Shown here: positions 6,966 to 64,000 of the stretch, piece after piece
Numbering within the stretch: position 1 is the first letter of the stretch
Layout: every line of letters starts with the position of its first letter
Assembly (NCBI RefSeq): GCF_050947875.1
Contig: NC_134570.1
Location: forward strand, 103,278,122-103,342,121
Source of the DNA: Dermacentor variabilis
Lineage: Eukaryota; Arthropoda; Arachnida; Ixodida; Ixodidae
Length of the DNA stretch: 64,000 nucleotides
Direction of reading: 5' to 3'
Notes under the pieces: generated by a model
The model's database searches: none
What the model was told of the DNA's origin: nothing
What the model saw: only the letters and a program-made list of their open reading frames with translations
Translations under genes and position numbers: made by a program

Positions 6966-6973
6966 CTTATATA
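6966..6973 (-). promoter_or_regulatory. TATA box of the 5.2-6.9 kb gene
   Basis: Reads TATATAAG on the minus strand, about 67 bases upstream of the predicted ATG at 6899. The other three family members have a TATA box at the same distance (about 63-75 bases), which supports both the box and the nine-base first coding exon. Confidence 0.65.
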
Positions 6974-7789: not shown

Positions 7790-8384
7790 TACTGCGACAA
7801 GACAAAATTCCATGATCATTTCCTCGACGCTTAGAGACATTCTCCCATCGTCTTCGACTGAACGTGGTATACACGAACAATTACCTACAGCGCATAGGGC
7901 TTACCACTAACCGCTACTGTGATAACTGTAGCAACTTCGAGACAGCGAAGCACATATTACTAGAACGCCCCGCGTACCGCGAAGAGAGAATTGTTTGAGC
8001 AAAAAATGGACGTAATTTGACAAGATGCGTTAACATTACCCAGCATATTAAGTCGAACGCCCAGCCCTTCAAAACAGTGGCGGGTTTTAGATTTATTGTA
8101 CAGGTACCTGTCAGAAATTAGTCTAATATTAGGAAAGCTTACAAGATTGAACATTTCATATACAAAAGCCTAAATTTACCCGCCATGTCACCTGTAAGTA
8201 TTAGTATCAGGTCCACAAGCGCCTTTCATGTTTATTTTGATTCTCTTTTTTCCCGCTCTCCTCTGGAATCCTTTAATCCCATTCCCCATCCTTATACAGA
8301 GTAGCATGCCAGGGGTTGTGTACGCTCCGGCAAAAATCTCTGTTTTCCTAATAAAGAGTCTCTCTCTCTCTCTCTCTCTCTCTG
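7790..8384 (+). mobile_element. 3' remnant of a LINE with a C-terminal zinc-knuckle region
   Basis: From 7864 one frame reads a C-terminal LINE-like segment with TTNRYCDNCSNFETAKH then ILLER. This is the Cys-x2-Cys-x7-His-x4-Cys motif typical of the end of RNase H-bearing non-LTR retrotransposons, with the last Cys replaced by Arg (CGC). A stop follows at about 7996. The untranslated part runs to 'cctaataaagagtc' and a (TC)n tract, a plausible 3' tail. It is 5'-truncated and decayed. Related fragment: 22600-23546. Clade not assigned beyond the I/R1-like group. Confidence 0.6.
8359..8383 (+). repeat. (TC)n microsatellite at a LINE 3' end
   Basis: About 12-13 uninterrupted TC units directly follow 'aataaagag'. 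The position suggests it grew from, or is, the terminal simple repeat of the preceding LINE remnant. Confidence 0.85.
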
Positions 8385-8389
8385 TGGGA

Positions 8390-11300
8390 CAAGATGACTT
8401 AGAGATGCAAAAGCACAGGCCAGAATCACGATACTGAGTTATAATTAAATCTACGTAAACAGGGAGCTGTCGCAGATGTAACATTTCCGTGTGCGCACGT
8501 AGGAAGATCTTGAGGCTTTCATCGCAGGGAGAGTGATCGGCATACACATATATGTCATACCATGGAATAGCTGTGAATATTACGACAGCATCCAATGACA
8601 AGGAAATCGCTGCAACAGACCACATGTGCACAACCAGACAACTCAAGAACGTTGGTAATCATGTTGAAGATGTATTACGTGTTCCACGCCTTAATCAAGA
8701 TTCATGAATTCATGCATATATGAAAGCATTCCTAAATCTCGTTTCCACTCTTTTTCTTGGTCGTATATTTGCGCATGATGGCAGGTCCCACAGTGTTGTC
8801 TTTTTTTTTAAATAAAGAACAGGGTAAAAGAAGCGCATCTAAGGCTGTATTTTTTTACGTACTGGTACAAACTATTTTCTTGTATGTACCAAAATAAAGA
8901 CAAGGCGACTTAGCGATTTAGCGTTCGTGTCATCATTAGGCTCCATATTTTCAGACTACCGCTGTAGTATCAGCGAGAAATCTTTCACTTTGCAACAATG
9001 TAAATTCTAAAAATTCTGGCAGCAATTTTCGGAGTAATTGTCCAGAATGTACATCAGAAGTGTCTTCCAATGCAATGTAGAAAGCCGACAAAGACGTCAT
9101 GTTTGGTTGTCGGGTTTGAATATCTTCTCAGTTGACTTTGTGTGAGCAGCGTGCTCTATAGTATCAAATATGTCTGTGTCTACACGGAGGTAACAGCTAC
9201 AGTCGACGAGATAAAATAATTAGAGTGGCATCGGAAGTAGGCCTTTGCTATAAAGAATGCAAAATAAGTGTTACAGAGTGTGTCATACCTTTTCACCACG
9301 AAGTAAAATGGGGAAACGTTAAGCCAGTATTAAACCTCCGCATTTTGGAGGAAAAGTTCGTTCACGGCTTGCGGCAACTGCAGGTTACACCGAAGAAAAT
9401 ATTCTTGGCCCAGTTGCTGTATACGAATGAGTTAAGGTTTCGGCTCGGGGGTAGAGTGCGAAATTAATTAAAGAGCGCCAGTCAAGACAAAGCGAAGACA
9501 AAACACAGAATTCTGGCTTTCAAAAAGAATAATTTCGAAAAAGTTGCAAACTTATATACTACAAGAAAAAGCGACAATAATGTCGCACGATACAGAGACC
9601 ACATGATCACACATAAAGAACTCTGAACAAGAAAAGAAATAAGCTTGTCAATATTCAGTGAACATGAGTGTCTTCAACAGGAACCTATTTACCCCTCCAA
9701 AGACTTGTAAAAAAGGATGAAACTATAAAATTGCATGGACATAATGTCCGTGTCATCGCGCTTTTCTTTCTTTTGTGCTCGTTAGTGTGTAGCTGCACTT
9801 AATCCTATATTTCACGAAGTAACAAACAAATTGTTTTCTCCAGTCATCTCAATTGTAGAGCAACAAATCCTCTAGATGAAAGTGCGCGACCAGGCACAGA
9901 ATAAATCAATGGGTGTCAAAAGGCAGTTATTGTAGCACAGGTTTCTATTATGGTGTTGGCTCCCTATTTTGCAGATATTTTAATAGAATGTGGCTAACAG
10001 GATGGAGCGATTAAAAAGGGCATACTGAAAACAAAAGATGGCCCTGAATGCCTGCCGGAATTGTTAGTACGATTCTCCAAAAGTGCTTGAAGCAATTGTT
10101 CACGTGAACGCGTACATTTCTCCGTTGCCAAGCCCATGCCCATGGCGTGCCTTCTATGTCTTTTGTTGCATCAAATGTATCTTATGATCATAAGTCAATG
10201 CGGTGAAATAACCGCAGGTTTTGCTATTTACTTTCGTTGCTAACTTGCATCCAAGTTTCCCGCGTTTCCAACTGGTTTAGCAACAAGCGATGACCGATTG
10301 TCGCGTGGACCAACCGGGACATTGGAGATCGATTTGCACGGCAACGCACCGTCGCTACCACTAAACGCCTCACTCCGAGACGCCGTGTAAAGCCGTTCGA
10401 ATCGCAATAGTTCAGCCCATCGTGGTGAGCTTTCGACCCCGCCAAGTGAAAGTTGAATTTCATTGCAAGCTATTTCTCTTATGCCGCTAAAATAGGCTCA
10501 CCGCCCCCGTAAGACAGAACCGTACCTACTTTTATTTTACACCTTTTCTTTATCAAGCAATCATGCTTGTTTCCGGTATGTCACTCTTTAGACAGCCGAA
10601 ACTTGATAGCACAATTTAAAGGCAACTATAGCGTGTACGATTATTCTAGACAGCAATTTCTTGCTTAAGACTGCGGGTAATGTCAAGTTCAGTGTGAGGA
10701 GCGAAGGCCACCTCCTTCATTACTATGTATCACGTTATAGCGCATGCGCATATCTTTCTGCATCGGCTTTCTATCAGCAAAGCAAACCTAATAAAATGCC
10801 TTCGCAAGGTTTCTCTGTTGTAATCATGAGGAGTAGTTACGTTAATACACGGTTTTATAGACACAGCTAGCTTTTAGTGTGTACATTCGCTATGAACTGG
10901 CTTTCGCAAATGTATCATTTAGGGCGGCATCGATCACACTTGAATTTGTGCTAATGAAAGACTAGGAGAGGCTGCCTCCAAAATATTGTGTGATTACTCG
11001 AGCAGATTTGTCTACACAACAAGCGAGAAAAAATAAACTGCACATCGCTAGCAATCTATTCAGCGGTGGTATAACTATCAATGTGGTTGGCGAGGACACC
11101 GTCTAGGCCAATTATATAAAGTCTTGCTACAAACGGCGAAGAGTAACTGATGCGAGGAGTAATATATCATTGCTGCTATGGGCTTTTAGTTTAAAAACAT
11201 CAAAACTCTCTTTTTTCCTCCTACACAAAATCTGAACCCCAGGCTTTATGTCCCACAGTACAGACAAAGCAGACCCATATATACAGTTCTGAAGTTCCAA

Positions 11301-12169: not shown

Positions 12170-13218
12170 ATGACCACCGTAAGTTCAATCTCGTTCTAGT
12201 TTTAGTTCTGCCTTTCTCGTTCGTCGGTCAAATTCAGCGTCAAATGGTAAAATTCTTCTTTTGCAAACCCCAAGAGGCATTCAGCATTAAGGGTATTTTT
12301 TTTTTATGACTGAGCATATGTCAGTCTTTTAGTGCAATTGCTTCTTCTCTTAGAATTTCAACGCCAGTACGTCACATGGAGTAATCATTTGATGCCTGCA
12401 GGCATCTCATATTCATCGGAATTTCTTCGTAGAATTAAAATATTTAAGAGAGGCCTTTAGCAAGCCTGCCGAAATTGCGAAACGGGGATTCCTTGGAGGA
12501 GTGTTTAAAAACATCCAGGTCATTTGAACACGTTTACTCAAAGGTGCGTCGATTTAAGTTATGTCGAGGTAAAAAACACTTTATCTTGCCCTTACTCCTT
12601 TCTCCAAATCTTGGTGTCCACAATGAGCGCAGTCGCCTAGTCGCTGCGTCGATTGACATTCCTATTTTACTTTTTTTGCACTGTCAGCTCTTCCTCGTCA
12701 TTGCTATGGTCGGCACGGCCTTCGCCGGACACATTCCAACACACGCGGTGCCGGTGGCATCTCTGGCCACGACGTACCATCACTCCATCGTCGCGGCACC
12801 GGCTTACGTAGCCGCCGCAGTTCCCGCCGTGTCCACCACCGTCCACCACACTCCAGCCGTGTCCAAGGCCACTCGAGTGACCAGCTACCAGACTACCCAG
12901 CCCGGAGTGCCGCACACAGTGGCCAAGGTATCCACTTACACCCCAGCTGCCACGGCCGTTCATACTGTCCACGCTGCGGTACCCACTGCGGTGACCGGTG
13001 TTGTTCATCACGCTCCAGCCTACACGTATGGCTACTATCCTGCACGCTACAGCTATGCCCACCGCTACGGCTACCACCCGCTTCGCTACGGCTACGTCCA
13101 CGGCCTTAGCCCATATGGTCTCAACTATGGCTACGGACTGGACGCATTCGGCTACGTCGCACCTGTCAAGAAATGTGAGAGCACTGCCTTTTGCTTCTTA
13201 CCATACATTAAGCTTTAA
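12170..13218 (+). CDS. secreted Tyr/His/Val-rich cuticle-like protein, subfamily A, two exons
   Basis: Exon 1 is 12170-12178 (ATG ACC ACC, donor gtaagt). Exon 2 is 12688-13218 (acceptor ttttgcactgtcag), phase 0, intron 509 bp. Product about 179 aa: signal peptide MTTLFLVIAMVGTAFA, Ala/Val/His region, conserved core (HHTPAVSKATRVTSYQT, PGVPHTVAKVSTYTPAA), then a Tyr/Gly/Arg-rich tail. The unspliced ORF would start at 12475, but that 5' part is intronic and lacks coding character. Close to the gene at 5238-6899 in core and tail (LSPYGLNYGYGL.AFGYV). A GTGAG directly after the VKK codons is shared with that gene, so the last 11-12 residues may instead be intron. No RR chitin-binding consensus seen. 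Probable role is a structural extracellular or cuticular protein; this is inference. Confidence 0.8.
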
Positions 13219-13364: not shown

Positions 13365-14340
13365 TATTATTGATGGTGCGCAGTGCGGCCGCTTGCAAGA
13401 ACCTGTAAATACCAGTTTCTCCTAACATTAAGAGAAAAGTATTAGACCTGCAGGTAACGTTAAGGGAGCTCAACGTGTTGGTTATAGAGAATGATGTCAT
13501 TGTCTTCTTCACAGAAACTCAAAGCCAGCACCTAGGGACAACGTCACCTTCCGTGGAACAGAAGGGAAACTCGAGAAGCGACTGCTAATGATGCGGTGAA
13601 AGTCCCAGTACAGTTTGTTGTTCTGTGTGTGTGTCGTAGGGATGAGTTCCTCAGAAAAATAAACAATATTTCCTCAGCCATCTGCATTTCGGATCAGCCG
13701 ACCTTGAGCATTTACTACCGCCGTCCTAGCTGATTACCATTTAATACTTTGCCTCGCGTGCCCAATCACTGATACTTGTGTCGAAGTTGTCAAACATTAC
13801 TCAAGCAATGAAAAAAAAGAGAGAGAGAGAGATAGCGTTTACTTAATATACGCAGGCGACACTTTGATATATGTATCCGCGACTTTTCTTTACACCTAGA
13901 AGTAGCTCCGCCACTTCTTTTTTCAGGCGTGAGTGGTCTTTATTCAGCAGCGGCAAATGTGTCAACACAAAAATGTGAACAAGAGTGACCGTATAATTCC
14001 TGTACATTAATCAGATAGCTCTGCTGAAAACCCTGAATAAGCTGCGTGGTTGTCTGTGAATACTCTTAGTATGCAAAATGTTATTTAAGTAACCTGTCCT
14101 AAAGACCACCCATGTCATAAATGGAACCTGTGGGCATGTAAAAATTCTTTGGCACATCGTTGGATGCATTTAGAAGGCAGTTTTTCGGCAGGCACCACTT
14201 TGCATGGAAGTTTAACTCGGCATCTACTATATTTCCCTTCTATAGGCCTTTTCGTCGGCTTGTGGTCATCGTTGAGATATCACTCACAAAATTTGTGGAT
14301 GTGCCTTTAAAAGCTTGCCCTGACATGTGTGCGTGGGCCC
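13365..14340. other. intergenic with a short (GA)n tract
   Basis: No gene recognised. An A-run followed by (GA)n lies at about 13810-13832. Confidence 0.45.
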
Positions 14341-14832
14341 TATAACGTAAAGCTATTCCAATATGTTTTTATTCCGCTCTCCTGACGTCAGATTTGCGTA
14401 ACCACCGACGCAAGCATCGGGCGGTCACCCGCAGGGTTGTCTGAACAGACCAATCAAACGCTCTCCTCGTTCACAGGAGGTAACTTTTGTTTACTTGAAA
14501 AACGAATAACATTGCCTACACTGAGTGGCTTGTCTTATCTAATTGGCTGACAAGAGGCGACTCTCAAGTGGTGGGCGATTACATGGAGCCGGGCAACTGC
14601 ACTCAACATGGACAAGCGTAAGAAGAGGGTGGTGCCGGCGTCTGCGATTGGTCCGCTGTCCCTTACTTAGCTTGCAGTGGCTTGTCGAAAATCGCGGCGG
14701 CATGCAACGGAAGCTTATGAATGACGCTAAAACGGATCATCAGCAAAGAGGAGCTGGCAGAACGAGGTCGTAAACGTGCTCAAAAACGTTACTATGCCGT
14801 GTAAGAAGGTTTATTAGACGCAAATAAACCCA
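14341..14832 (+). repeat. dispersed repeat, uninterrupted copy
   Basis: About 480 bp that align over their length with 50512-51001 in the same orientation. Shared landmarks are 'aaagctattccaata', 'ttgcgtaacc', 'cccgcagggttgtctgaac', 'aacgaataacattgcct', 'ggtgccggcgtctgcgattg' and 'cgtaaacgtg'. The copies differ by many substitutions and small indels, so they are old. This copy continues past the point ('tttatta') where the second is interrupted, reading GACGCAAATAAACCC. No ORF is conserved between the copies. Confidence 0.8.
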
Positions 14833-14983
14833 TGCTCTCAATAAACCCAGGTTTGAGTAGCCAGTGCCTGAGCGATCGGCGGCAGCCATCTTTTATTCCT
14901 TTTGGAACGGGGCAGCCTGCGACTATTCAGAAGAAAATTCAGTTTTGTTCGGCATATTAATGCACCTTTAACGCGTACACGTC

Positions 14984-15280
14984 CCTTTGACGCGGTGAAT
15001 TTTTTCGGCTTCGTGACGTAGGGTGACAGACAGATGAAGAGGGTGCAGCCCACAAATTTTTGACCAATAGCTGAGGGATAACGGCGAAATGACGTCAAAT
15101 CAGGAATAACTACTTATCTTTTGTTCAGTCAAATCATGCATAATCAGTGTGTACACGTCATATCAGATGGGGAGCTATCGCGGATTTTGTGACGTCGCGT
15201 GGCAGACAGGGGAAGTGGGGGTGGTGCTAAAAAGTTTTTGACGAATCGCAGAGGGCTGATTGGAGAAGTGGAATAGAAAA
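14984..15280 (+). repeat. diverged direct duplication
   Basis: Two related segments, about 15010-15090 and 15185-15270, share the order 'gtgacgt', 'gacagacag' or 'ggcagacag', 'tttttgac', 'gagg'. They may be an internal duplication of the same dispersed element that begins at 14341. Confidence 0.4.
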
Positions 15281-17504
15281 CTTTTGAATAGTTTTACGTT
15301 ATAGCGCCCCATGTCACATGTGTCGGGCACCAGTCCAGGCCCCATGATAGGCTCGTGGGAAAAGAAAAGTTCTTGCCGAAAGCTTTTGTTACCGCTGACA
15401 CATTAAAGTTCCTTCGAACAGTTCAAGGGGTAAATGTCCTTAGCCTTTTCACACAATGTAAACACTACCTGAGTGAAGCTGTATTTGTATTTGGAGAATA
15501 AGTTCGTTTACAAGAGGCCCCAACTTTGCAAAACAAGATCCGCTGCTATTCGATTGCTGTCTAGAAATTTACTGAGGAATTGAGCGCAGAAATGACGGGG
15601 AACAAATAAGTCAAACGTACCCATACTCTACTCTCAAGTAATAAACTACCAATACGCTTAACCATATATGGTATTCACATGAACGGTAAGCGCATTACGT
15701 GCGATTTCAGTCGCGCAGTTAATTAAACCATAATTCATTATTCCTCACAGTGAGCAACCAGCCACAGCGCTTACTTTTGAATATTATAACCAAAAAAATT
15801 TTGATGCGAAAAGCATGAACAACAAAGTCAGAGACGGTCTGTATAATAAGGACAAACTCCATGTTAGTCAAAGGGCAGGAGTTGGGATTTGCAATCTCTG
15901 ACGAAACGCACGACCAAAGTTTATTCGTTAATTACGCAGCAAACGACAATATTCTTGTCCAAGCTGCACAAAACGGAGACAAACTCTGCAATAGTAAATT
16001 AGCTCGTATACTCGATTTCCAGACCTACCGTCTCTCAGCTAAACTCAAGCACTGGCTTGTCTGTGTTGACGGTATCGGCGGCTGGCGATACAAGCTTGTT
16101 TTATTGAGCTACATGTCAAACTGTTGACTTTCTTCAGGCTGTATTTCTAAAATATTTGACTCGCATTCTCAGCGTCTTTGACTAGCCATGCGGGCTTCCA
16201 AATGCGAAACTCGTTACAATTGATTAAAAATTGTTGTTTAATGTAACCCTGGTAGACCTTTACGGAACGTGTCATGCGTTATCAAGCGGCTGCTGAAACA
16301 GAGTAGCTATACCGCAATATTTGCTTGAAATTTCAGTGCATTGCTGACCTATGCACTATCTGAATATTTGACTGAAGAAATTGTCCTAAGGACCTCAGGT
16401 CGTCTCAAAATACATGGTAGAAACAGTTGTTCTTAGAACAAAAATCCGCCAAATAGGCCACGATTCATGCTTTGGTGACCAAGTTCCGTCTTCGGCAAGC
16501 CGCTGCATACTGTTTAAAATGAGCCAAGCTATGCACAATGACGAGGTACGTTTTTGTCTGCCGTAATAATTTTCTGAATGAAAGTGCAGCGCTGATCCAC
16601 CATAAACTATAGCCAACGTCCCCTTCTCCCTCCTTAGTTCATACAATGTGGTTCTTGGCATTCACAATACATAGTATAGAATGACAAACACGGCAAATCG
16701 TCGAGGAAATACGTAATACTGTGTTCTTGAAACATTACAAGTTCATTTATTTCATTAGCAGCAATTCTTGTTGACTGATATACAAACTTGTCTTGAGAGC
16801 GCGTCGGCATTTGAGTAACTGTTCACAAAGATGACTGAAATGTAGCTTTCTGATGAAAAGATCTGGACAGTAGGCTCTGTCTGCGCAGCAAACACAAAAA
16901 AGTAAAACATAACTGTTTTCATTTATTCCACGCTATGCAACCAAAGTACGAGTGGCATTACATTTGTATATGGAAAATAATATCTTATACCAAGGGCATC
17001 AGGAATACAAAACAGGCGCTTCTACTGCTGTGTCGTTTTCCTTAGAATAATATTGAGGAAAACAGGGCTGGAGCTCGGCCGCACAAGAAGCAAAGCGGAC
17101 ACAAAGTTAGTGGGTCGTCGTCACATATCTCTGTTGTACTAGAATTATCCGCCAGACAGCCGAACTATCCAGCATACTGGATAGTTGCTGGATAGTTGCT
17201 GGAAATGGCTCCTTGATTGCGACGAAGACGCTTATATAGTATTAAAGAGCAGTAGCTAACAGAATGGCACATGGGACGAAGAATGGCGCATTGCCTTCTA
17301 TAACCAAAGCTAGTATATGCGGCGACGTTAGCATGGTTATATAGGGTATGTGTCCACGTAACTTTTACAGGTAAAGTTGGGTTCACTCGACACCTGTTAC
17401 AATTATCTTCGGTTAGCGAACGATGTCTTCCTAAAGTTTTTTTTTTTTAAGCCAGCCCTCATTGTCAGTAGCTATTCATTTGACACATACAAAAAATAAC
17501 CGAC
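15281..17504. other. intergenic, nothing recognised
   Basis: Only short ORFs without motifs. It contains the expected 3' region of the minus-strand gene at 17505-19563. A run of 12 T at 17438-17449 (A on the coding strand) lies about 60 bases past its stop. Confidence 0.45.
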
Positions 17505-44440: not shown

Positions 44441-44567
44441 TGTTACGGTTAATGTTAAACCGGCTTTATTTAAGGGACGAGATTGATGGTGAAGTCAAGA
44501 TGGCGTCCCGAGGCTGCACACGCTAACGTCTTCTTCCTCTTCTGCTCGCCCGGCTCATGCCGTAGCA
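44441..44567 (-). repeat. 3' LTR
   Basis: 127 bp, TG...CA. Differs from 49511-49637 at two positions (gaggctg against gagactg, atgccgtag against atgctgtag). Contains AAATAAAG near its 3' end on the coding strand. Very short for a gypsy-class LTR. Confidence 0.92.
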
Positions 44568-44607
44568 ATCCCCGGTTGCCAGACGAAGCCCGCTGGGCAA
44601 GTCCAAA

Positions 44608-49510: not shown

Positions 49511-49637
49511 TGTTACGGTTAATGTTAAACCGGCTTTATTTAAGGGACGAGATTGATGGTGAAGTCAAGATGGCGTCCCGAGACTGCACACGCTAACGTC
49601 TTCTTCCTCTTCTGCTCGCCCGGCTCATGCTGTAGCA
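49511..49637 (-). repeat. 5' LTR
   Basis: 127-bp partner of 44441-44567, flanked outside by ATAT. On the coding strand it starts TGCTACAGC and ends CCGTAACA. Confidence 0.92.
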
Positions 49638-49641
49638 ATAT

Positions 49642-50511: not shown

Positions 50512-51001
50512 TATAACCTAAAGCTATTCCAATACGTTTTTATTCCTATCACTTGGCGTCAAGTTTGCGTAACCGCCGACGCAAGCATGTGGCGATCACC
50601 CGCAGGGTTGTCTGAACAGACCAATCAAGCACTCTCCTCGTTCATAGGAGGTCACTTTTGGTTGCAAGAAAAACGAATAACATTGCCTGCACTGAGCTGC
50701 TTGTCTTATCTAGTTGGCTCACAAGAGGCGAGGATCACGCTGAAGTGGAGATGGACTCGATGGGGCCGAACCACTGCACTGAAAATTGATAACCGAATGA
50801 AGAAGGTGGTGCCGGCGTCTGCGATTGGTCCGCTTTCCCTTACAGCTTGCGATGGCTGGTCAAAAATCTAGCGCGGCATGCAACGGAAACTTAAGAATGC
50901 CGCTAAAACGGACCTTCAGCAAAGATGAGTCGGCAGAACGAGATCGTAAACGTGCCTAAAGTGCTCGAAAACGTTACACGGCCACGCAAAAAGTTTTATT
51001 A
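50512..51001 (+). repeat. dispersed repeat, copy interrupted at its right side
   Basis: Second copy of the repeat at 14341-14832. The match proceeds to 'gttttatta' at 51001 and then stops abruptly where TACACTGTAAAA begins. The expected continuation (GACGCAAATAAAC in the other copy) is matched by TATGTAAATAAAC at 63988-64000. Confidence 0.8.
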
Positions 51002-51003
51002 TA

Positions 51004-51260
51004 CACTGTAAAAAATTTCCGTAATTTTACGGAGGATTTCTGTCATTATACGGAGAACTGCAGATAAAAATACGGAAAGTATGTCATATTTCAAAAATAC
51101 GGCAAAATCTGCCGTTAATATACGGAAAGTGCTTTCCGTTTTAAGCTTTACGGACATTTTCACTGTAATCATATAACGGCTATACACTGTTTTGGACGAA
51201 ACAGACAGAATTCCGTATTTCGTATTTAGATATTTGCGCTGGATGTCTTTCACTGTGTTG
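51004..51260 (+). repeat. left terminal and subterminal region with TTCCGT/ACGGAA motifs
   Basis: The inverted terminus is followed by at least ten TACGGA, TCCGTA or CCGTT words in both orientations. It ends in a 27-bp string (51228-51254) that recurs exactly at 52934-52960. Confidence 0.7.
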
Positions 51261-51437
51261 ATCGAACATCCGTATTATTGTGAGAAAATTTAAGCTGTCT
51301 GAATGAGCGGTCGTACTCACAAAGTTTCAGCTAACAATATTTTATTGAACACGCAAACTGTACGGATTATGAAGATGCGTACAAAATGTGAGAGCTAGCC
51401 TTCTACCAAAAGCCGCAATAACAGATTGTATAAATAT

Positions 51438-51483
51438 GCGACCGGAATAGAAGATGCGTATACGCATCTTCTATTTCGGTCGC
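51438..51483. repeat. 46-bp near-perfect palindrome without a spacer
   Basis: GCGACCGGAATAGAAGATG continues through CGTA|TACG to CATCTTCTATTTCGGTCGC. Arms of 23 bp, one mismatch, no loop. It could extrude as a cruciform. Confidence 0.9.
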
Positions 51484-52599
51484 AGTTTGCCGCGCATATG
51501 GGCCTTGTAACGCTGATCATATGCGCAAATATATGCGCGTTCTGGCAATGTTCTCAAATTAAGCGCTTTGCAGTTAATAATACAGCATATATGTTTAAGG
51601 GAACGAAGAGCCGTGGGCATACGTGCATACGTAAACAAGCTTGCGGCACTCAGGTGCTGGTGCACTGGGACTGACATTGGTGCTCTACGCCAAAAATTGT
51701 ACGCACTATAAATCAGTACCGAAACGCAGGGAGTGGTATAATGATCGTAACTGCGTTTACATTTAGCAACAAATGGTCTCGAAGGAGACTGGCGACCTAT
51801 AGATCCAAGCACAACAGTCGGATGAAATTTTCGAATGCGGCAAACAATTAACCCAAGTGTGAAAGGGCATTGCTGAACTGCAATGTAGTTGGTTTAACTC
51901 ATTCCCATAATATTTACAAAATAAATCGTCTCTGACAATAACCACCCATTCATTGAGACAAATCGACTACGCACAATCTTCACTGTTCATGTGTTAATTC
52001 TTGCGGTAAGATGTAATCGCAAACATTTGGCGCTTCATCTTGAAACAAGACCGGTAAGCGCGCTCATTGTTGTACGGCAGAATAAAGAACACGAACATGC
52101 CCCGACATGTGTGCAAACTACTGGAAGGTGAGTGAAGATGAAGGACCTATTACCGTGCTAGTACTGTGTGTACAGTCCAAAAGAAGAATAAAAAAGACGG
52201 AAAAGAATGCCCAGTGCCGAGATGTAACGATTCAAGCTTTATTACTTTTCGACCTAGAATGCAACAGCATTAGTTCCATGTGCTTTATACATGGGTAAAT
52301 GTTATGACAGAACTCATTACATGCACCAACCAGCCCAAATTATCACTATACTGGAGCTTATGGACGCATAGCAGTGCACTGCTTTGCACTTCATTGCCGC
52401 ACAGGAGTTTGCTATCCCCAGTAGCGAACGGTTTGGTTGACCTCCCTGCCTTTCTGCTTCTTGCATTCTCTCTCCGTTTGTATAAAACGCACTAACTTGC
52501 GGGAGAGAAAGCGTTTTTCTACTTTAGAATTCAATTAATTGTCAAGCAATTGTTTTGCGGTTCCAGTAACTAAAGTAGAAATGCGAAAACGAAACCGAA

Positions 52600-53099
52600 T
52601 CTGTTCTGTTCTCCGCGCTCACAGAGTGCGGCACCAGGGGGCAGCGCGCGCTGCGCGGCCGTTAGGAGTGGCTGACGGAAGTGCACATGTGTAGTCAGCC
52701 GGAATTTTTCGTGTCGTGTTGTAAAAGTTGTTAATTCGCCGTAAATATCTCTTGATTTGTACTCAAGAGTGGAGCAAGACCCCAAGGAAGAGAGATTGAC
52801 GCATCGGGAGCGAAGAACAGAAACGATGCATGGTTACGCTGCTTGGGTCTCGGCACGTTCGAATTGGCAAAGTTCCGAATTTGTCGCTGTGTGGTGTACG
52901 CTTGTGCGCTCGTCATTTGCCGCCATCGCGCGGAGATATTTGCGCTGGATGTCTTTCACTTCGTGTACAAAACTCAGCACGCTGCGGCATCGAAGAAGTT
53001 GTCCTGTGTTTGGGTGCACGTATGCGCTTGGACACGGATAGCCTGCTTGCTCTCAACGGGTGTTCAACAGTCTACGCGCGCTCGTAACTTGCTCATGAG
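52600..53099 (+). other. CpG-rich candidate promoter and first exon
   Basis: GC- and CpG-rich compared with its flanks. It ends in a strong splice donor, CATGAG|GTAAGC, at 53099/53100. One frame (52843-53099) is open and ends with two bases that complete an Arg codon with the first base of the next candidate exon (53845). No ATG starts that frame, so exon 1 may be untranslated or the match accidental. Confidence 0.35.
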
Positions 53100-53844
53100 G
53101 TAAGCCCATTTTAATCTTATTTGGTTTGCATAACGTAGGTGTTAAAATGATGTGTGGTAAGCCGGTGTCGCGAACAGAAATATTGTTTCAAAAGATCACT
53201 ATGCAACGTCTTAGGGCAAAAATGACGCATGAATGGGGAAAGGGATCACCCTATCTTTTCAGATCGATTCCAGTGGTAGCGCGATCGGCTCGATCGCAAT
53301 TTCCGTGAGGTACTACTAACTTTTTTCTCACTCGGGTTAAAAGCGTAGAAGAAAACTGCGTTCAGTTGCGCACTTGTATTGACGCTTGTATTGGCTTGAG
53401 AGCATACTGTATCCGATAGAAGAACTTCTGTTAGAATACGGAAATAAACGTTCGAGGCAATAGCAGTGGCTCACTACCTGTGATCGTTACTTTCGTGCTT
53501 GGGTGCACGTTTGAATTTTGACCTGAAAAAAAAGTTCTTTGGCTGCTCTGCTGTGTTTCGTTGGTGCAACTTTTTTCAGTGCAGCAAGACGTGTTGCTTC
53601 GAATGATGTCTGGGCAGTCAAGGCATTCGTGTCAGTAAGCAAGCAGTAGACGGGGTATCAGTGCGAAAAAATTTGGACATACAAGAGAAACGAGTGGTAT
53701 CATCATATACTCTTTTATGTTACGAATAATTCCGTTGTATTATTAAAGCGGAGAGTGGATATGCATGAAAGTCAGATTGTGTTGATACTCAGCAAAAACA
53801 AGGTAACTTATCATTACTAATCAATCCTTTTCTTTTACTGAAAG

Positions 53845-53938
53845 GCATGTTGCTGTTGTTCTGCTCAAGCTGAGAAGAGGTCTGCTGCCTGCAGTGGGCC
53901 CATCTCTCTCAAGTTATCGCAGTATTGTAGCTCTCAAA
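53845..53938 (+). other. candidate internal exon
   Basis: Acceptor ttttcttttactgaaag and donor CTCAAA|GTGAGT enclose 94 bp. The frame set by the upstream candidate exon is open across it (HVAVVLLKLRRGLLPAV...). No known domain. Confidence 0.3.
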
Positions 53939-54229
53939 GTGAGTGGATTTTTTTTTCTCTTGGCTATTTGCTACCTGAATCATGAACATCTACTTAGATG
54001 TGTAGGTGATCACTGTCAGTGACATTGGAGTGCTGGTGGACAAGCACTTCTTTATGATTGCAACGCATATGACAGAGTGCAGCTGTGGCAGTATGTGAAG
54101 GTGTTAATCTATAAGCCAAATTAGGTTCCTTGAAGTAATATATTTGAGCCACAGAGCATGTTCATAAAGAAAAACCTATATTTGCCAGGACTAACGCTTA
54201 TCAAAATTCGCCCCTAGTTTTATCTATTG

Positions 54230-54716
54230 CTGATTGGAAGTCGTTACCTGCAAACATTGTCTCGCTTATGGAATCATCATCATTTCATGCAGCGCTGCTA
54301 ACCTTTTTAGACTGTGTCAACCTGTCCGAACCCACATTCCCTTGAATATTTACTTAAACAGTGTGTTCAAGTGCTTGGCATTGTATAAAATTCATTCCGT
54401 TTCATCTTATATCTGTCTGTGTAGGCTGTTTACCTAAATCATTATTCGATTGTATCCTTAAACTCGTGTTCTGAAGGGTACTGATTGTTTGCATCACATT
54501 TTAGGTTCTTATGCGTGCTTCACGCTACTAAACATTGTATAAACTCCATTACCCTTCTCTTCCTTTCTTTCTTTTGTTTGCTTCTGCTAGATGTTTTTTG
54601 TGGTTCCTAATGCCTTCATATATTTACATTGTACAGGTTTCACTCATGCGTGAACTTTTCCGTCCCCCCCATGTAATGCCCTAACGGGCCCTTAGGGTAC
54701 TCAAATAAATAAATAA
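54230..54716 (+). mobile_element. LINE 3' UTR remnant with AAAT tail
   Basis: Ends 'gtaatgccctaacgggccc' plus 'ttagggtactc' (a small hairpin) and (AAAT)n near 54701-54715, the appearance of a CR1/jockey-like LINE 3' end. No coding part remains. Confidence 0.45.
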
Positions 54717-55063
54717 AGAAATATATTGATGACATTGGATTGTGGTCTAGCAGGCAAAATGCTAAACAAGGAGAAGTAATCTTAATTTGCACTTGGTAAG
54801 ATGTGCATGCAACTCAGGCTGTTATACATAAAATGGGACATTTGTAGATGTCTTCTACAATGCTGCAGTCCTGAATAACTTCAGAGTTAAGTGATACCAC
54901 TATAATTTCTCTGTAAAGCATGCAGCACAGTTTTGCATTGGGGGAGGCTGGCATCAACAGGCGTCTACTTACTGTGAAGTTCAAATGAGGTGTTACTGTT
55001 AGGGTGACTATATATAATTTATGGTTTAATTCTAATCTTGTATGAGGCAGACATAGTTTACCT

Positions 55064-55198
55064 ACTTGGTTAAACAATAGTGATGTAATATCTATGTATA
55101 CAAGTATTACCCATTCATTTATGCCATTTGGACAATGACCGAAATGCATGGGTAATACTTGTATACATAGACATTACATCACTATTGTTTAACCAAGT
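55064..55198. repeat. fold-back repeat, 57-bp arms
   Basis: Arm 55064-55120 (acttggttaaacaatagtga...) and arm 55142-55198 (...tcactattgtttaaccaagt) match inversely with two mismatches. Loop 21 bp. Confidence 0.9.
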
Positions 55199-55570
55199 CG
55201 TGCCCCTGCATGCTAAATTTTACAGGGCTATTATTAAGTAATGTCAACTTTTGTTGTAACATTAAGGCACCTTTTATATTATTACAGATTACCACCATTG
55301 TGTACCATCCTAGTGTGATATTTACACTAAATGTATTTGACATTGCTATGAAACCCTGCACTGTGGTGCATCATGAAATTTTTTTTATAGTTTCTGGCCT
55401 CGGAATGCACTTCACGTTATATTCTTGTTTGCAACAAAATTATATGGCAGTTTTCTCACCTTATATTTTGCGGCACTTGAAACTGCGGTGAGCTAAACCA
55501 CTGGGCAGCAATACTGGAATCGCACTGCATGTGGAGCTGTCTTCAAACACACACAAGGAATACATAATTG

Positions 55571-56306
55571 CTTTTTTAGTGCAAAACAACGGACACAAGA
55601 AAGATGACAGAACAAGGCGCTACTCTCAACTGGCATCACTTTATTGCATCCCTCCTTTGTAGACAGCAGAATGTAGAAGAACATGCGCTGTGAATACCGT
55701 ATGCAGGAACCACCAACATCTGATCACAAGAGCACACTCATGTGACAGAATCCAAAAAAAAAACATATTGAGCACTGTACAAGGTTAAAGAAAGCACACT
55801 AATGCACTGTGACCCCAATGACTGCATGAAGAAAGCTTCCGATAACTCTCTGGCGGTGGTATCCCGGCTCTTTTTCAAAATCGTAGTATCACGAAACATT
55901 GCGAACATAAGCGATCCATACCAACAGGCACAGGTTCCCATTTGGCTCAACATTGTAAAACATGGAAGTGCAAAGCCATGTTTCGTGATACTACAATTTT
56001 GAAAAAATGCTGTGATACCACCGCCCGAGAGTTATCGGAAGCTTTCTTCATACAGTCATTGGGGTAACAGTGCATTAGTGTGCCTTCCTTAACCTTGTGC
56101 AGGGCTCAATATGGATTTTTCGATGCCGTCGCATGAGTACGCTCTTGTGATTGGTTGTTGGTGGTTCCTGCACATGGTGCTCACTGCGCATGTTCTTCTA
56201 GAATCTGCTTTCTATAAAGGAGTGACGCAATAAAGTGATGTCAGTTGAGAGTAGCGCCTTGTGCTGGGGGGGTCGTTTTGTGTCCATTGTTTTGCGCTTA
56301 ACAAAG
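55571..56306. repeat. large inverted repeat, about 329-bp arms
   Basis: Arm 55571-55899 and arm 55978-56306 are inverse matches along their length, with spacer 78 bp. Shared landmarks: 'gtgcaaaacaacggacaca', 'aaggcgctactctcaac', 'aggaaccaccaac', 'cacactaatgcactgt', 'gaaagcttccgataactctc' and 'gtagtatcacgaaacat'. By eye about 80 percent identical. ORFs on both strands inside are products of the symmetry. Confidence 0.85.
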
Positions 56307-57305
56307 TATTTATGGATTCGCACCAACTAGCCTGCCAACTCGTGTTGAACGCAAGGAAATGCGGCTTTGCCTTTTTTGACTGTGTTGCGGGCACTTCTGA
56401 AGTACTGTCTGTCCAATAACCTTGGTGGCATGGAAGTGCCGTCCACTTCCATGCGTTGCTTTCTTTTTCATTGTGGCATCACTTCACATTATAATCATGA
56501 TGTGTATGTACTTTTTCTAAGAGACCCATATTCCTATCCTTGTGTTATATTTGCTGTCGCATTATTGATGTGCAAATGACCAGTGCTCCAAGTTCCATTT
56601 TATTGCAAAGTAAACTACTGGTACCTAAACAGTTCTGTATATCAGAAAACCAAAGCCGAACTGCTGAACAGTACCAAGTAGCAGCCTTAGTGCAGTGTCA
56701 AGTAGTCAAATTTTATTGGTCATGCACAGGCGCACAGCGTACCTCTTTATTACTTGCTGAACAATTAAACTGTGTGGAAACTGAGTATTTATGTTGCTTC
56801 AACCACATAGTATTGGCCATTGCTCCTGCCCTCAGCAAATGTGGAAGATTATCATGGCATTTCTTTTTCTAACTCTTTTTCCTTACTACAGTGGGATTAC
56901 TGCATGCGTAAGTAGGAAACGGATCACATAGGCAATCAAAAGCCAACAATGTGTAAACTTGTAACATTGATTGTACAGTTTGATGACCCAGAATAAGTAG
57001 ATATACACCATAAATGATTGACAATTAACTTTTACTTGACACAGGGCTAGAGCATACAGTAAGCATACTGTATGCTCATACGGTGTCGCATCAATTTAAA
57101 TTTTAGTGTAGCTTTACAGTCTACGCTTCTTTTGTTGCATTCTGTCAGAGGGATGGTAATGTTTCGCGTGTATAGCAACTAGACTGTCTGTATACAGTAG
57201 TAAAAATGTGCGAACTGAATTTTTTAAGGACTTGATAGAATGTGTAGAAGAATAAAGCCGTACAATCAACGCACAGTGATGTGACTTTCTCTGCACATGT
57301 TGCAG

Positions 57306-57444
57306 GTTCAAAAAGTATGGCGGAAGCTGTTGCCAAGGTTCCGACCGGAAAAGAAAGCCAGTATAAAAGGGTCCACACCACTGATCTCTACTACAGGGGA
57401 TGGACAGCACATCGAGCGCCCTTGACTGAAGCCAACCTGGTCCC
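57306..57444 (+). other. candidate exon
   Basis: Acceptor gcacatgttgcag at 57305 and donor TCCC|GTAAGT at 57445. In phase 0 after the candidate exon at 53845-53938 it reads VQKVWRKLLPRFRPEKK and reaches TGA at 57423; a second frame is open throughout (MAEAVAKVPTGKESQYKRV...). Function unknown. Confidence 0.3.
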
Positions 57445-58895
57445 GTAAGTTGGTGCTTCACAACTTTGCAGCAGCACTTTGTTTGCATGGGTGTGTGGCA
57501 TTTCTTCCCCTAACATGCCTGCCTGATGTGCCATAAGCTACCCAAGCAGTGTTTCAAGTTGTCCAGAATTTTTTCATTGCAGTGTCTACAGTGTTGCTAA
57601 CATAAGTGGCGTCCAATGGAAACACTGGTAAATGAGAAAAACTTGATGTAATAGAACACTATCGTGTGTACGGGTTCAGGTTGTCATAAAAACGCATAGC
57701 ATACATGTAGAGACCTCCTAAAATGTGAAAAACCACAAAGAAAAGTTTTTCGGCAGCAGTATTATCTGATCGCACGCACTAGTTAGTCCACCATATGCCC
57801 TGCTTCCAGGACAAGCGACTGCATGACACCGCATTTCCACTGGCTTCACCTGCATCAGGTGCGGTTTGCTGCATCCAGCAAAACATATTAGAAATCAGTG
57901 GTGCACAATGTTTTCTGTCCCCTTTCTCGACGCCTACTGAACACATAGTAAACTGTTTCCAAAGCAGAAAAAGGGAAAGGGCTCTGAACACATTGTATAT
58001 TAAAGTGGCTTCTACTGGGTAACGCAAGTACTGTGGCTTAGTAGATTTTCACCAGGCAACCTGGGAGCCCGAAAAGGCTGCTGTTTACTTGCAAATGACC
58101 AACATGTGAGCATGTTGAAGTTCTTTTTTTATTCTCATCGCTTATTTAGCTAGTGGAGACAACTTTCACATCTGGAGAAGAAGCCTTGGAAGCATGAAAC
58201 ACTTCACAAAACCAGCTTCAATATATCATGTGTCTGCATCAGAATTTCATGGCTGTATGAGTGAACCCTCTGGTTAACATGTGAGACTGTCCATGATGTT
58301 TGCCATGCATTATCCACTTTATTTACAGGTCAACCCTATCTTGAGATTTAAGCTGATGTTGCGTTTAGAGAAATTATGGCTGAGAGCCAGCTTTTGAGAA
58401 TGCAGATTGAGCTCGACAGATTAAACGCCAGCACAAGTTGTTGAGGATTTCAGATCAAGAATCTTCAAAGGCCAGTTCATTTAGTGGTGTTAATATTCTG
58501 CTCAAAGTTGTTGATTGTTACGTTCACACGGTGTTCAAGCATTGCGGTAACAACTTCACTTGAAGTACATAGCAAGGGTGTATTCGACGTAAGCTGGTGG
58601 CCTTTTTCTGCGTTTTCAAAAACTGGTTTCTTGTTCAGTTTAAATTTTCAAATTTCGTATTGTTTATTAGGTGTTGTGTCCTATTTCCTTTTCCTGCAGC
58701 TTCTTAGTTAAACATCTGAATAGTGAACAGAACATGACCTTTTGCTTGATTTTCTAGATTACACGCCCTCGATGCAAAACAATTTCACTTCAAAACTGCT
58801 TGTACCGTACTGAAAGAAAAACTTGAAGCAGCCATAGCCATTAATAACACGCAAGAGATGATTATGAAAATTGTAATATTGTTTTATGATCTACA
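57445..58895. other. no gene recognised
   Basis: Exon-like islands occur (for example around 58060-58107 and 58340-58445, the latter with AESQLLRMQIELDRLN), but phases could not be chained into one model. Confidence 0.3.
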
Positions 58896-59200
58896 GGGTG
58901 TCGTAACTATCATGCACCAAGATTTAGAAATATGTAAATGCAATGTAACTAGACAGAATGAAGGTAATGTTGTTTGCCATCGCTTGGAGATACTCAGATT
59001 ATTTTTTGCATTCTGCCTAATTACGTAATTCTTAATTAGTTAATAAATATCTCAAATAACTAAATGAAAAGTGTCAATGAAAAGTTGTAGAGCAATATGA
59101 AAGCCTCCGGATACACTTTTCTGTTACTGTTACTCATTGTGTGCTACATAAAAGTTTTTCCAAGGAATAAGCCTGTGAATACATGTAAAGTGTCTTGAGT
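58896..59200 (+). repeat. possible dispersed element beginning ACAGGGTGTC
   Basis: From 'ctacagggtgtcgtaacta' through AT-rich 'aattacgtaattcttaatta' to 'gcctgtgaatac'. A TA-flanked CAGGGTGT start looks like a transposon end. No second copy in this window, so the assignment is tentative. Confidence 0.3.
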
Positions 59201-60775
59201 GGCCAGTCATGTGTCAATTTTATGGTGCAAAGCCACGAATGCAACTTAAATGGGTTCTTTTAAGAAAACGACTTAGTTCAAAAAATTATCCTTCTTTATG
59301 CAGCCTGTGGAGACAAGGTTTTTTAAGACATGGCCATGGCCCTCAAGGAAGATGCCGAGGCCACAGGCAGTTCCTCCAGTGACCATGAAAAGGTCCCCTG
59401 TGGCACAAGTCTAATTTGGCACCTCTACCTTTCTCCTGCAGCTTTTCTGTCTACTTAGCTAACCAGGTGGGTCAACGATTGCAAAGAGAAAAAAGGATCA
59501 ACAGCTTCAAATGTAGAACTTGCTCAAGCTCAATGCATTTTTGGTGTGAAGTTTTTCCCTTATCATTTATGAAAAAACGGGTTATAAGTATATGATATGG
59601 TCTTCATACGGACACCTCTTTCCCATAGAGAACTATCAGTAAAAAAAGCAGCTTATGAAGGCTTGTATATTAGTTAGGATGATGTGGCATAGATAGGATA
59701 ATGATTATGAATGTTTCTGGTGAAGGTAGTGGTAGTAGAGTGAATAATCAGCTTATATATAGATTAAAAGACATTTCGTTCTAATGCCAGAATTTTAAAT
59801 CATCCCAAATAATTCTTGCATTTGATAGTCTATGCACATTGAGCGGCAGTGCTTCTTGATGCTTGCTTCTTGCTGACATCATTCTTATGCTGCATAATTC
59901 ACCTGTTTAAATTCCCTATTTCTCCCGTTCAAGCAACTTGACATCATCATAACAAACCTTGTAGATGAGTTCCAAAAACTTGCTGATGAGATTAGAGGGC
60001 GGCGTGCATCCCAGGCTTAGATATGCATTCAAGAGCTTCATACCTTGCAAATGTTAGAAATACTCCTGCTAAGCAAGTTCCTGGTGTCATACAAGGGTAT
60101 TTGCAAATACGAATTTGCCTAAATTAGGAAAACAGTCAATCTAAAACATGTCAAGCGATGTCGCTGACAATACACACACACATTTCAACTGAAGTAAATA
60201 CAAATAAATATAGCACCAAATGCAGAATCATTGGCATGGTGCCATTCTTTCAGTGGAATAAAATTGTCCTGTGTTGTAAATCTGGAATCATTTATAATCC
60301 AAGCTACTAAATACCTCATAAGGGTTGTGACATGAAATACGCATGTATTTATTCCTCTTTTTTTTTTACTTTAAGACACGATAATGCATAAACAGCAGTG
60401 AAAGAACTGAGATCACAGTACTTAATACTTTATATTGCTCCAAAAATCCGTTTCTCTGCCGATCACAGCATTTGACACTAACAATTTTGTGACAGAAAAT
60501 GTGAGACAGAAGGCACATAACACTTAGGGTGGTGCTTTTCACTTCGATTGTTTGGGAACGAAACCCATACTGTACATGTTATGGCCCTACGTGTCGTTAC
60601 CTTTGAACAAAAGAGGTAGGGGGTTTGCGTTTTGCAAAACTGCATGCAGGTTCTTACTGTGTGCAATTAAAATTAGAGACCTTCACAGCTGATACTAAAT
60701 GCATTCTCCACAGCTTTAGGTTATACAGGTGCACTACTTTACACAGAACACACTCTTTTACCTCGTCACTGCCCA

Positions 60776-61040
60776 CACTCTTAGGCAGAGTTACACCCTT
60801 TGAAGTGCCCCTTCTGCCACACAGCGATAATTGTCATCTGCCTTGATGCGTTTCCTTTCTTTAACGCTGCGAGCCCTGTACTTTCCAGTAACAAACGGCA
60901 TGCGCGTTATCAGCATGATAGCATGCCTGACAGGAAAGTAGCGGGTGTGGCGTTTTCAAGAAAGGAAGTGCATCAAGGGAGATAACGATTATTGTGAGGC
61001 AGAAGGGGCACTCCAAAGGGTGTAACTTTGCCTATGAGTG
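60776..61040. repeat. fold-back repeat, arms about 85 bp or more
   Basis: Arm 60776-60862 ('gttacaccctttgaagtgcc', 'ccttctgcc', 'ccttgatgc', 'cctttctt') pairs with arm 60957-61040 ('aagaaagg', 'gcatcaagg', 'ggcagaagg', 'ggcactccaaagggtgtaac'). Weaker pairing continues inward toward about 60910. It looks like a MITE-like fold-back. Confidence 0.85.
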
Positions 61041-63646
61041 CAGCTGGTGATTCAGATTCTTCAAAGGTGTTTCATTGTATGGGATGGCACATCGCACTTC
61101 ACTTATTTGCAGAATATTGCATTCCAATTGTGTCATATGAGATAAATCCATTAGAGAGATGTAAATTGCCCTAAATTTATTACAACTGTGTACTGGTAAA
61201 CTGGCAGCCGCTTCCAGTGCTTGTGGAAAAACAATTGTAACTGTCATATTATATGTAACTGCTAGTGCACAGGCATCGGCAGCAGCAATGGTTAGGGTAC
61301 TCTTGTTTCTTCTATTCTGGGGTATGCATCCTCCACCAGAAAATAGTTTTTTTCCTCTTCCTCTTCTACCACATTGGAACGTGAAATGGGGTGTAATTTG
61401 TAGGGAATACTCTTGCATAAACTTCATGAGCATTTCTTCTTGTCTGTGCCACAGATCATTGTTGCTAGGACTGTAAAAGCAGGGTGCCTGTTTACAGCAC
61501 CCGTAGGGAACAATCTGTGAAGCTTTAACGAACAGTAAGGATAATGAGTAATCGAATAATTTTTAGTAATCTTCAACAAATTTAGCACTCTGCTTTCCAC
61601 TGTGGTGTTTTTCAAACTCTAATGTTTGCACAAGGTTTGACTGCAGGATGTCCTTTTGTGTTAAAGAGTGCACTTATGCGCATAACACCTCATCGGCAAC
61701 ATGCTGCTGCACAGAATGTCATTAGCTTTCGTATGCATTGGTCACTATCTCACAAACGGGCTGCTCCTTTGTTAGTTGGAATGTAGCATTAATGGAAAGC
61801 ACATTTGATGTCATAACAAAAAGAATTGTGCCCTCTTATCCCATAATTCTCCTCACTTGATGTCTAGTGTTATAATAGCATGGTTGACACCATGAGAGTC
61901 AGTGTGGTGTATAATTATGTCTATGGTGGGTTGGGGGGGTGTACAATAACTTAAGCAACTTTTCCAGACGACTTGAATCAGTATTGTGGAATGCTGTTTT
62001 TTTTTCACTCACTGTTGCCAAGTTTCACCTTGGTTGTGGCAACAGGTATAATGTAGATCGCTAGCGCTCCTGCCAACACACATAATGTGCAGGCATCTGT
62101 GTTGAAAGAAAGACCAGCTAATGGTTTGCCAGGAGCTAAGGTCCATTTAGATCATTAAATTTTGAGCTTACACCAGTGGAAATAACTGGTGATGAAAGCA
62201 CACCTAGGAAAACTGCCCATATTTTCTTTCATTGTAATAATGCTGAAGCTTTGAACCGCATTTGAACTGACTTGTTTAAAAAATGACCCATTTCCTTGTT
62301 CAAGTAAGACAAAGGTTCCACAGGAAGACAGAAACTTGAAGCCGTCAACAGCAGCATGAATATAAACAGCGCTCGGCGTTTTGCAATCTTGCACCTGGTT
62401 ATCATATTGTCCATCCCATTTTTTTTCTACAGGCTGTTCTTTACTGTTTTGTGGTAATGCCCAGTTTAATTTTAATGTCCCTATTTTTTAATATTTGGTT
62501 AATATATCTTTTCTTCATCGGCTTTCAACAAAATATATATTCATAATGTGCCTTCATTTACCATTTACAGTGATCTTAACCAGATGCATCTTGATACAAA
62601 ATTTATTTTCCTTAATTCTTCGTTTCCCTTTTCCAAAAGTGCAAGCTGTTTATCTTGATACCTATTTTCTCTTCTGGGAAGATTAGGTCTACTGGTATAA
62701 TGACTGCTTACATGTGTACATCGTTTTCTATTATGGTCACCCCTACTCGTAGCAAGTACTGACAACAGTGCTCATACCCACTCCATCACAATCGCCACTG
62801 CTAAGCACACCCTTCCTTCCTTTATTTTAACACTTTGGCTTCTCTTGACCTATTATATACACCAATTTCTTCTCCCCCAATGAGGCTAGGGGCCAGTGAG
62901 CTATGCACAATCCAAAACAACACAGCCAAGGAAAACTTTGCTACCCTAATGACAAGCACCTATGTCGAAATGTTGGCTACAGCAGCATCGCTTGTTTCAA
63001 CAATGTTGGTCTACTTACATGTTTTTCTAACACAAAAGTTACTGCTTTGTCGTGTTCTGTGATTATACGTTTTTGCCGCTTTCTTTAGCATGGATATTCA
63101 TGAATACTATTTGTTTCTTCTAACAGCAGCAAGTTTATCCTTGCAAGCATTTGGGGTCAAGAACAACTTTCACCAGGAAGAAGTGCAAGACGACTGATTG
63201 AAGAAAATAAAGTTGCTTCTGTGATCTAAGAACTTGAGGACTGAAATGTTGCACATTTTTGTATATATGCTATGCAGTGCATTCATATCACAAAGTGCAA
63301 AATGTTTTATCTCTGCAGCCATGTCAGTGTGTTGACAAGACAATTTTCTCAATGGTGACCAGCTGCTTTGGCTGTGAGCTACCTTCATTGCATTTGCATT
63401 AAAGAGATGTACTATCGTGCACAAAAGTACCCTGGAAGTGCGAGCGTTGACCAAATTGCATTTCTGTTCAAGACCGCTGAAAACAATGGCTCAAGTATAC
63501 ACATTCTGAACGCAGATGGTAGCACGGCTGATCCCAGCAAATAGTGCACCATAAAAATCGGTCGACTCTCGCACGTCCTAGGCAAATTTGTCCTCGATGG
63601 CACATTCTCCGAACAATAGATTTGCTCTGCAAGAGGAAATACGGGA
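61041..63646. other. no gene recognised
   Basis: AT-rich interior of the 13-kb element. Short ORFs only. A G7 run lies near 61933. Confidence 0.4.
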
Positions 63647-63914
63647 AGCACCTGTACTTTAACAGATATAGTACAGATATAGCATACGGAGTCTTTCGTT
63701 TTCTGAATACAACAAGCACCTGTATTTTAACGGTTATAGTACAAATTCAGCATACAGTGTGTTCCGTTTTCTGAATACGAGAAGCACCGTACTTTAACGG
63801 TTATAGTACAGATTCAGAATACAGAGTCTTCCGTTTTCTAGGTACAGAAGCACTCGTATCTTGTATTACGGTCTCTCTTTTACAGTTATCCGTTCTACGG
63901 AAATGACCGTTCTT
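63647..63914 (+). repeat. 68-bp tandem repeat in the right subterminal region
   Basis: Units begin 'agcacc' or 'agcact' at 63647, 63715, 63783 and 63849 and share 'gta.tttaac.g.tatagtac', 'cagcatac' and 'ttccgttttctga'. Period 66-68 bp, three full copies and a partial. Confidence 0.85.
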
Positions 63915-63954
63915 AATTTACGGAAGAGTGTTCGGTCACAAATTACCAGCAAAT

Positions 63955-63987
63955 TTTCTGTAAAGTAAGGAAATTTTTTTTACAGTG
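63955..63987 (-). repeat. right terminal inverted repeat
   Basis: As inverse complement: CACTGTAAAAAAAATTTCCT then TACTTTACAG. Pairs with 51004-51035. It is flanked by TA at 63988-63989, and the following TGTAAATAAAC resembles the interrupted dispersed repeat. Confidence 0.75.
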
Positions 63988-64000
63988 TATGTAAATAAAC

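Follow-up and report, generated by a model that had tools for sequence, protein, structure and literature searches.

What is the 13-kb block of DNA that breaks a dispersed repeat near the right edge of a 64,000-nucleotide stretch of the Dermacentor variabilis genome? We refer to the whole stretch as the window; it corresponds to C3:103278122-103342121 in the 2.48-Gb genome that we searched. An initial annotation of the window had proposed one large, possibly non-autonomous CACTA-like transposon with a TA duplication. Our analysis supports that proposal by the ends of the block, its target-site duplication, the existence of a family of related copies, and the lack of a transposase in the copies examined. 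We estimate a probability of approximately 0.78 that positions 51004-63987 constitute a giant non-autonomous copy of a CACTA-like (CMC-type) DNA transposon that was moved in trans.

The insertion, its ends, and the empty site

The element occupies 51004..63987 on the + strand and is 12,984 bp long, running from CACTG to CAGTG; we delimited it by reading its ends, by its matches to other copies, and by alignment to an empty site. As the initial annotation had stated, its ends are inverted with respect to each other and flanked by TA: CACTGTAAAAAATTTCC follows TA at 51004, and GGAAATTTTTTTTACAGTG ends at 63987 and is followed by TA. The left terminal inverted repeat is CACTGTAAAAAATTTCCG (51004..51021, + strand), and the right one, read in the window, lies at 63969..63987 on the - strand. 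The element therefore has the terminal structure of CACTA/En-Spm elements (CACTA/CACTG...TAGTG/CAGTG).

The two copies of the 2-bp target-site duplication (TSD), both TA, are located at 51002..51003 and 63988..63989, as determined from the sequence and the empty-site alignment. The insertion splits a 970-bp host repeat, whose left half lies at 50512..51003 on the + strand and which resumes at 63990 and beyond. An uninterrupted copy of this repeat is present in the window at 14338..15309 (+ strand; identified by flank matches and alignment) and represents the empty site. The left flank matches 14338-14779 with 84% identity over 451 columns, and the right flank, taken from a sequence that reads past 64000 (L009), matches 14856-15309 with 82% identity over 456 columns, both on the + strand. 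The initial annotation had recognized the break in the repeat and an empty-site copy at 14341, and it had asked for an extension beyond 64000 to be aligned to 14832-15300; in the extended sequence the interrupted repeat continues, which closes the right flank that had been left open.

We then joined the two flanks, removed one TA, and aligned the result to the uninterrupted copy: 796 of 986 columns are identical, and 34 are gap columns. The junction TTTATTA[TA]TGTAAATAAAC aligns column for column with TTTATTA[GA]CGCAAATAAAC, with no gaps immediately around it; the first gap begins approximately 20 columns further right. Because the joined flanks align to the uninterrupted copy, we identify 51004-63987 as an insertion of 12,984 bp accompanied by a 2-bp duplication. 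The host repeat (approximately 970 bp, window 14338-15309) is itself an element with terminal inverted repeats (ends CTATAACGTAAA...); one transposon has thus inserted into another.

Short TTCCGT/ACGGAA words, which had been described as dense at both ends, occur five times in the left 300 bp and four times in the right 300 bp of the element, compared to 35 times in the remaining 63.4 kb of the window (0.17 per 300 bp). The left subterminal region rich in these words spans 51004..51303, and the right subterminal region (63638..63987) contains them together with a 68-bp tandem repeat (63638-63853). Like CACTA elements, the insertion thus has a short subterminal motif in both orientations. In CACTA-type elements, such words are the binding sites of the transposase, and both ends are cut. 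For the element described here, a transposase encoded elsewhere would bind the TTCCGT/ACGGAA words, pair and cut both ends, and paste the element at TA-like sites, that is, by cut-and-paste in trans. Kinship with CACTA (CMC) elements is suggested by the ends, the subterminal words, and the target duplications only.

A family of long, largely colinear copies

The 19-bp version of the left end has 132 exact matches genome-wide, and the right end, searched in one common form that differs from the window's own, has 36; the reversed-pattern control returned 0 matches in both cases. Among the matches listed (100 of the 132 left ends), 20 of the 36 right ends have an exact left end on the same strand within 60 kb. 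Eighteen of these 20 pairs span 11.7-13.1 kb, including 13 that span 12,270-12,310 bp, and the two outlying spans are 5,405 and 14,152 bp. Within 60 kb of the 36 right ends, the matches listed include no left end in the opposite orientation, and 16 right ends have no listed partner, with only exact left ends accepted. The genome therefore contains the additional copies with both ends that the initial annotation had called for, and ends with unrelated, closely spaced partners, which it had named as grounds for refutation, did not materialize around the 36 exact right ends examined.

Searching with the left kilobase of the element returned at least 42 match rows (best 40 of 397 candidates scored); searching with the right kilobase gave a lower bound on the number of matches (best 40 of 441 candidates scored). 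In a first pairing, a left end lay within 60 kb of 19 of those 40 right kilobases, at a distance of 7.6-38 kb for the nearest. Ten copies, drawn from the better matches of the left-kilobase search, were fetched, and all of them align along the element: seven to within approximately 10 bp of the right end, and three shorter ones to position 12,658, to the fetched limit at 11,508, and to 9,418 only. Copy c9_6.39M is rearranged and contains an inverted 1.4-kb segment, and inserts divide two others, c3_200M and c1_11M. Pairwise identity is 93.1-98.6% among eight aligned copies, a set that does not include these three or c43_43.36M, c2_175M, and c10_38M.

Ten further left ends were chosen by hand from the 100 listed, all outside the left-kilobase matches. 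Five of them form a group with mutual identities of 99.3-99.7% over 1.45 kb, and the one member that was read completely is 12,286 bp long with TA on both sides (the young copy). L036, L041, and L042 are also copies of the element, with lower identity. L039 resembled a different element but proved to be a copy that a 6-kb insert interrupts after 135 bp. At the other extreme of divergence, copy c2_175M matches piecewise over positions 1-9077, mostly at 82-86%, with no match past position 9077 in the remaining 6 kb of the 14 kb read; the full length of the oldest copies is therefore not shown. The element belongs to a family with recent copies of approximately 12.29 kb, some of them nearly identical, and the interiors of the copies are largely colinear.

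Coding capacity of the element

The longest stop-to-stop frame of the window copy is 176 aa, compared to 99-187 aa in 20 two-base-block shuffles, and the longest frames in the element-matched segments of 14 fetched copies are 111-213 aa (c10_38M being partial). In 20 of the 25 window-copy frames of at least 80 aa, no Pfam family scored above the cut-off, with three sub-threshold matches at E 0.011-0.12; none scored above it in the 201-aa frame of the young copy or in three frames of c2_175M. Codon periodicity across eight copies gave a largest chi-square of 11.5, below the null 95% point of 13.6. A tblastn search of the window and the young copy with a CACTA transposase from the same genome, P0033, found nothing below E = 0.4. 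The tnp2-type DDE transposase encoded by autonomous CACTA elements was therefore not seen in the copies examined, which is why we call the element CACTA-like and non-autonomous.

Several longer frames were considered as transposase candidates and rejected. Frames located in inserts of three copies (c3_200M, c1_11M, and c43_43.36M) or beside c4_217M belong to sequences with reverse transcriptase domains, and a 332-aa frame past the last c11_117M match has only sub-threshold RING matches.

Target-site duplications and the search for a putative helper

Matching 2-bp duplications are present in seven of the eight copies with both ends read (four TA and one each of CA, AA, and TT, the TT copy having a decayed right end), and the eighth has CA/TA. 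The 2-bp length agrees with the 2-3 bp duplicated by CACTA elements. Transib, hAT, and piggyBac produce duplications of 5 bp, 8 bp, and TTAA, respectively, none of which corresponds to the 2 bp seen here. Tc1/mariner duplications are strictly TA, which is inconsistent with AA, TT, and CA in three of the eight copies. Of the 19 family left ends considered (L040, discussed below, excluded), 13 follow a TA, a dinucleotide that accounts for 6.2% of those in the window.

The initial annotation had also called for an autonomous relative encoding a DDE transposase, and this search came back empty: no such relative was identified, and no CACTA-type transposase could be tied to these ends. The PF02992 profile matched 8 places in the genome (best E 9.8e-6) and 0 of 14 control genomes. 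P0033 is an 825-aa open frame in one place, L044 (Pfam E 9.2e-08), with zinc-finger-like motifs visible by eye, and two further places show 98.4-98.8% identity over 7-9 kb, either to L044 or between themselves. A search with P0033 returned at least 71 rows at 31-100% identity, several of them frames without stops (best 55 of 653 scored). Together with L044, L049, and L050, these matches form a diverse population of CACTA-type transposases whose own element ends were not reached; none is tied to the ends of the element described here. Comparison of the element with three transposase sequences gave only an exact stretch of 18 bp (E 0.005, positions 12259-12276), which may be due to chance.

Several observations weigh against our interpretation. 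Among the matches listed, all 55 transposase places (52 from the P0033 search and 3 from the PF02992 profile) are more than 80 kb away from each of the 188 ends, the closest distance being 82.5 kb, and the 9 kb around each of three transposase genes contains no CACTGTAAAAAATTTCCGT end. The case for a helper from CACTA proper is weakened, given that no listed transposase place lies within 80 kb of the listed ends. The TA preference of the 2-bp duplications also fits Mirage- or ESTA-like lineages. In L040, one of the ten sampled left ends, the match to the element covers only 27 bp before other DNA begins, so at least one other sequence carries the element's end. Finally, the copies read are only part of the family, and outside the window copy Pfam covered few frames (one from the young copy and three from c2_175M).

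Neither a right end nor a transposase was seen within 15 kb in L040, read together with L048 and L051. By eye, some open frames in these sequences look Tc1-like.

An alternative is that the helper comes not from CACTA proper but from another lineage with TA-biased 2-bp duplications, such as Mirage, an ESTA-like lineage, or a new one. We consider this somewhat unlikely. Mirage makes a TA duplication, and both the 2-bp duplications, 13 of 19 left ends being preceded by TA, and the lack of a listed P0033-type transposase within 80 kb of an end are what such a helper would predict. In addition, CMCT lineages mostly have CA..TG termini and duplicate 2-5 bp, which in ESTA is TA (PMC12730594). However, animal CACTA elements of the TRC kind also give 2-bp duplications (PMC4298943), and the AA, CA, and TT duplications argue against an enzyme of the strict-TA Tc1/mariner type.

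A five-exon unit inside the element

A protein search with the element returned 26 matches, and using a predicted protein as the query returned 31, for 32 in all. All of the matched proteins are annotated as uncharacterized and come from Dermacentor (D. andersoni, D. variabilis, and one from D. albipictus). In tblastn, the segments of the 26 proteins fall on five places of the element, in order and on the + strand. Exon 1 (52830..53099, the part matched by predicted proteins) is followed by a GT donor at 53100, and exon 2 (53845..53938) is bounded by AG and GT. Exon 3 (57306..57487, also located by the protein search) has an approximate 3' edge and an unsettled donor; the 3' edge of exon 4 (59304..59466) was placed at the splice site between AACCAG and GTGGGT; and exon 5 (63127..63211) includes an AATAAA signal at 63206-63211. 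Apart from the exon 3 donor, the junctions read are GT-AG. Other exons picked by eye at 58330-58440, 58758-58965, and 59939-60020 are unmatched by the 26 predicted proteins (57305-57446 was matched), and that at 58758-58965 contains a stop common to seven of eight copies.

The splice structure and the isoform labels of the proteins, which are themselves predictions, indicate that the unit is probably transcribed. An element that is autonomous after all, with this unit or unrecognized exons encoding a very divergent transposase, appears very unlikely to us. Such an element would account for a GT-AG spliced unit with AATAAA that is predicted as Dermacentor proteins, and the number of exons varies among CACTA transposases (PMC4158355); the codon-position bias of exon 3 also comes close to significance (p 0.058). 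However, the predicted products are only 102-233 aa long, and none of the five scanned reached the Pfam cut-off. Exon 3 is read in different frames by different models (P0017 vs P0028 and P0031), and the exons are as variable as the rest of the element (135 of 792 vs 2157 of 11467 variable sites, p = 0.24, in an alignment that leaves out the same six copies as the identity comparison above). We saw no conserved reading frame in the unit. The negative P0033 search of the window and the young copy points the same way. The unit resembles a passenger transcript that is non-coding or has decayed, rather than a source of transposase.

In one D. andersoni protein, P0023, exon 3 is fused to an unrelated N-terminal part that appears cysteine-rich by eye; exonization of the element's exon 3 into a host gene is possible.

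That the 13-kb block is merely a segmental duplication or recombination product has a negligible probability: three copies on C1 lie approximately 38 kb apart (1991626, 2030381, and 2068726) and could be local duplications, but duplications of differing 2-bp sequence and uniform ends and spans across contigs argue otherwise, and the exact empty-site alignment refutes this explanation for the window copy.

Palindromes, hairpins, and a probable nested insert

The interior of the element contains several inverted self-matches. A palindrome lies approximately 435 bp inside the left end (51437..51484), and a 26-bp inverted match is found at the same place in seven of ten sampled left ends. An internal hairpin of 265 bp occupies 60776..61040. 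A large hairpin at 55572..56304, with arms of approximately 330 bp in pieces, lies between exons 2 and 3, and its arms are 85-90% complementary in pieces; other copies likewise show inverted self-matches at this place. An Rfam search of the element gave no match.

A 578-bp segment at 54142..54719 is present in the window copy and in c11_117M; in 11 other copies the alignment is interrupted at this point, and c9_6.39M is uninformative. Because the segment is common to two copies and the match breaks in 11, it suggests a nested insert that was carried along by the element in transposition. It ends in AATAAATAAATAAAG and is perhaps a retroposon.

Elsewhere in the window, 44441-44569 and 49511-49639 form a direct duplication of 129 bp with 98% identity.

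Implications

Non-autonomous DNA transposons usually shrink. In this family, the 12.3-kb length is kept despite differences of up to about 7% between copies, and some copies are almost identical; the family is therefore a test case for length retention in trans-mobilized elements. The element might be a long-lived parasite of a CACTA-like transposase, and its five-exon RNA or its hairpins might serve it, for example by titrating silencing or binding transposase, and so over many rounds of copying keep its 12.3 kb from collapsing to the size of miniature inverted-repeat transposable elements (MITEs), but we regard this as a doubtful, if conceivable, explanation.

Our results also affect annotation, given that exons of this transposon are matched by 32 predicted protein entries from Dermacentor. 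The D. andersoni and D. albipictus entries would lie in the same transposon, judging from these matches. For D. variabilis, 2.48% DNA transposons and 24% unclassified repeats were reported (PMC12341941), and part of the latter may be assignable to this element. The terms "transposon," "CACTA," and "CMC" are absent from the main text of PMC13105059. Our literature search, in which subscription journals were thinly covered, yielded no paper that we recognized as describing the element.

Comparison with known systems

MITEs are a few hundred bases long. Like MITEs and other non-autonomous DNA transposons, the element has recognizable ends, many copies, and no transposase, and would be moved in trans; unlike them, it is 12.3 kb long and shows no sign of having arisen by deletion from an autonomous element. 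Large retrotransposon derivatives are also long, not necessarily coding, and mobilized in trans (PMC6431247); however, those have long terminal repeats and move through RNA, whereas this element has inverted repeats. ESTA and Mirage, of the CMCT clade, resemble it in their CA..TG termini and TA duplications (for ESTA, PMC12730594). As described in that source, ESTA is fungal and carries a transposase and TET/JBP genes; none of these were seen in the element, although no search targeted ESTA, Mirage, or Chapaev transposases.

The enlarged En/Spm elements of Chondrus crispus (16-20 kb) contain four to five open reading frames, unlike the element described here, and share with it a CACTA-type structure above 10 kb (PMC6431247). 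With CACTA/En-Spm (CMC) elements in general, our element shares CACTG ends, short inverted repeats, and bidirectional subterminal words; it differs from them in its TA-biased target and in extending over approximately 12.3 kb with no recognized gene or transposase in the copies examined. Its 2-bp duplications are like those of animal CACTA elements of the TRC type (PMC4298943).

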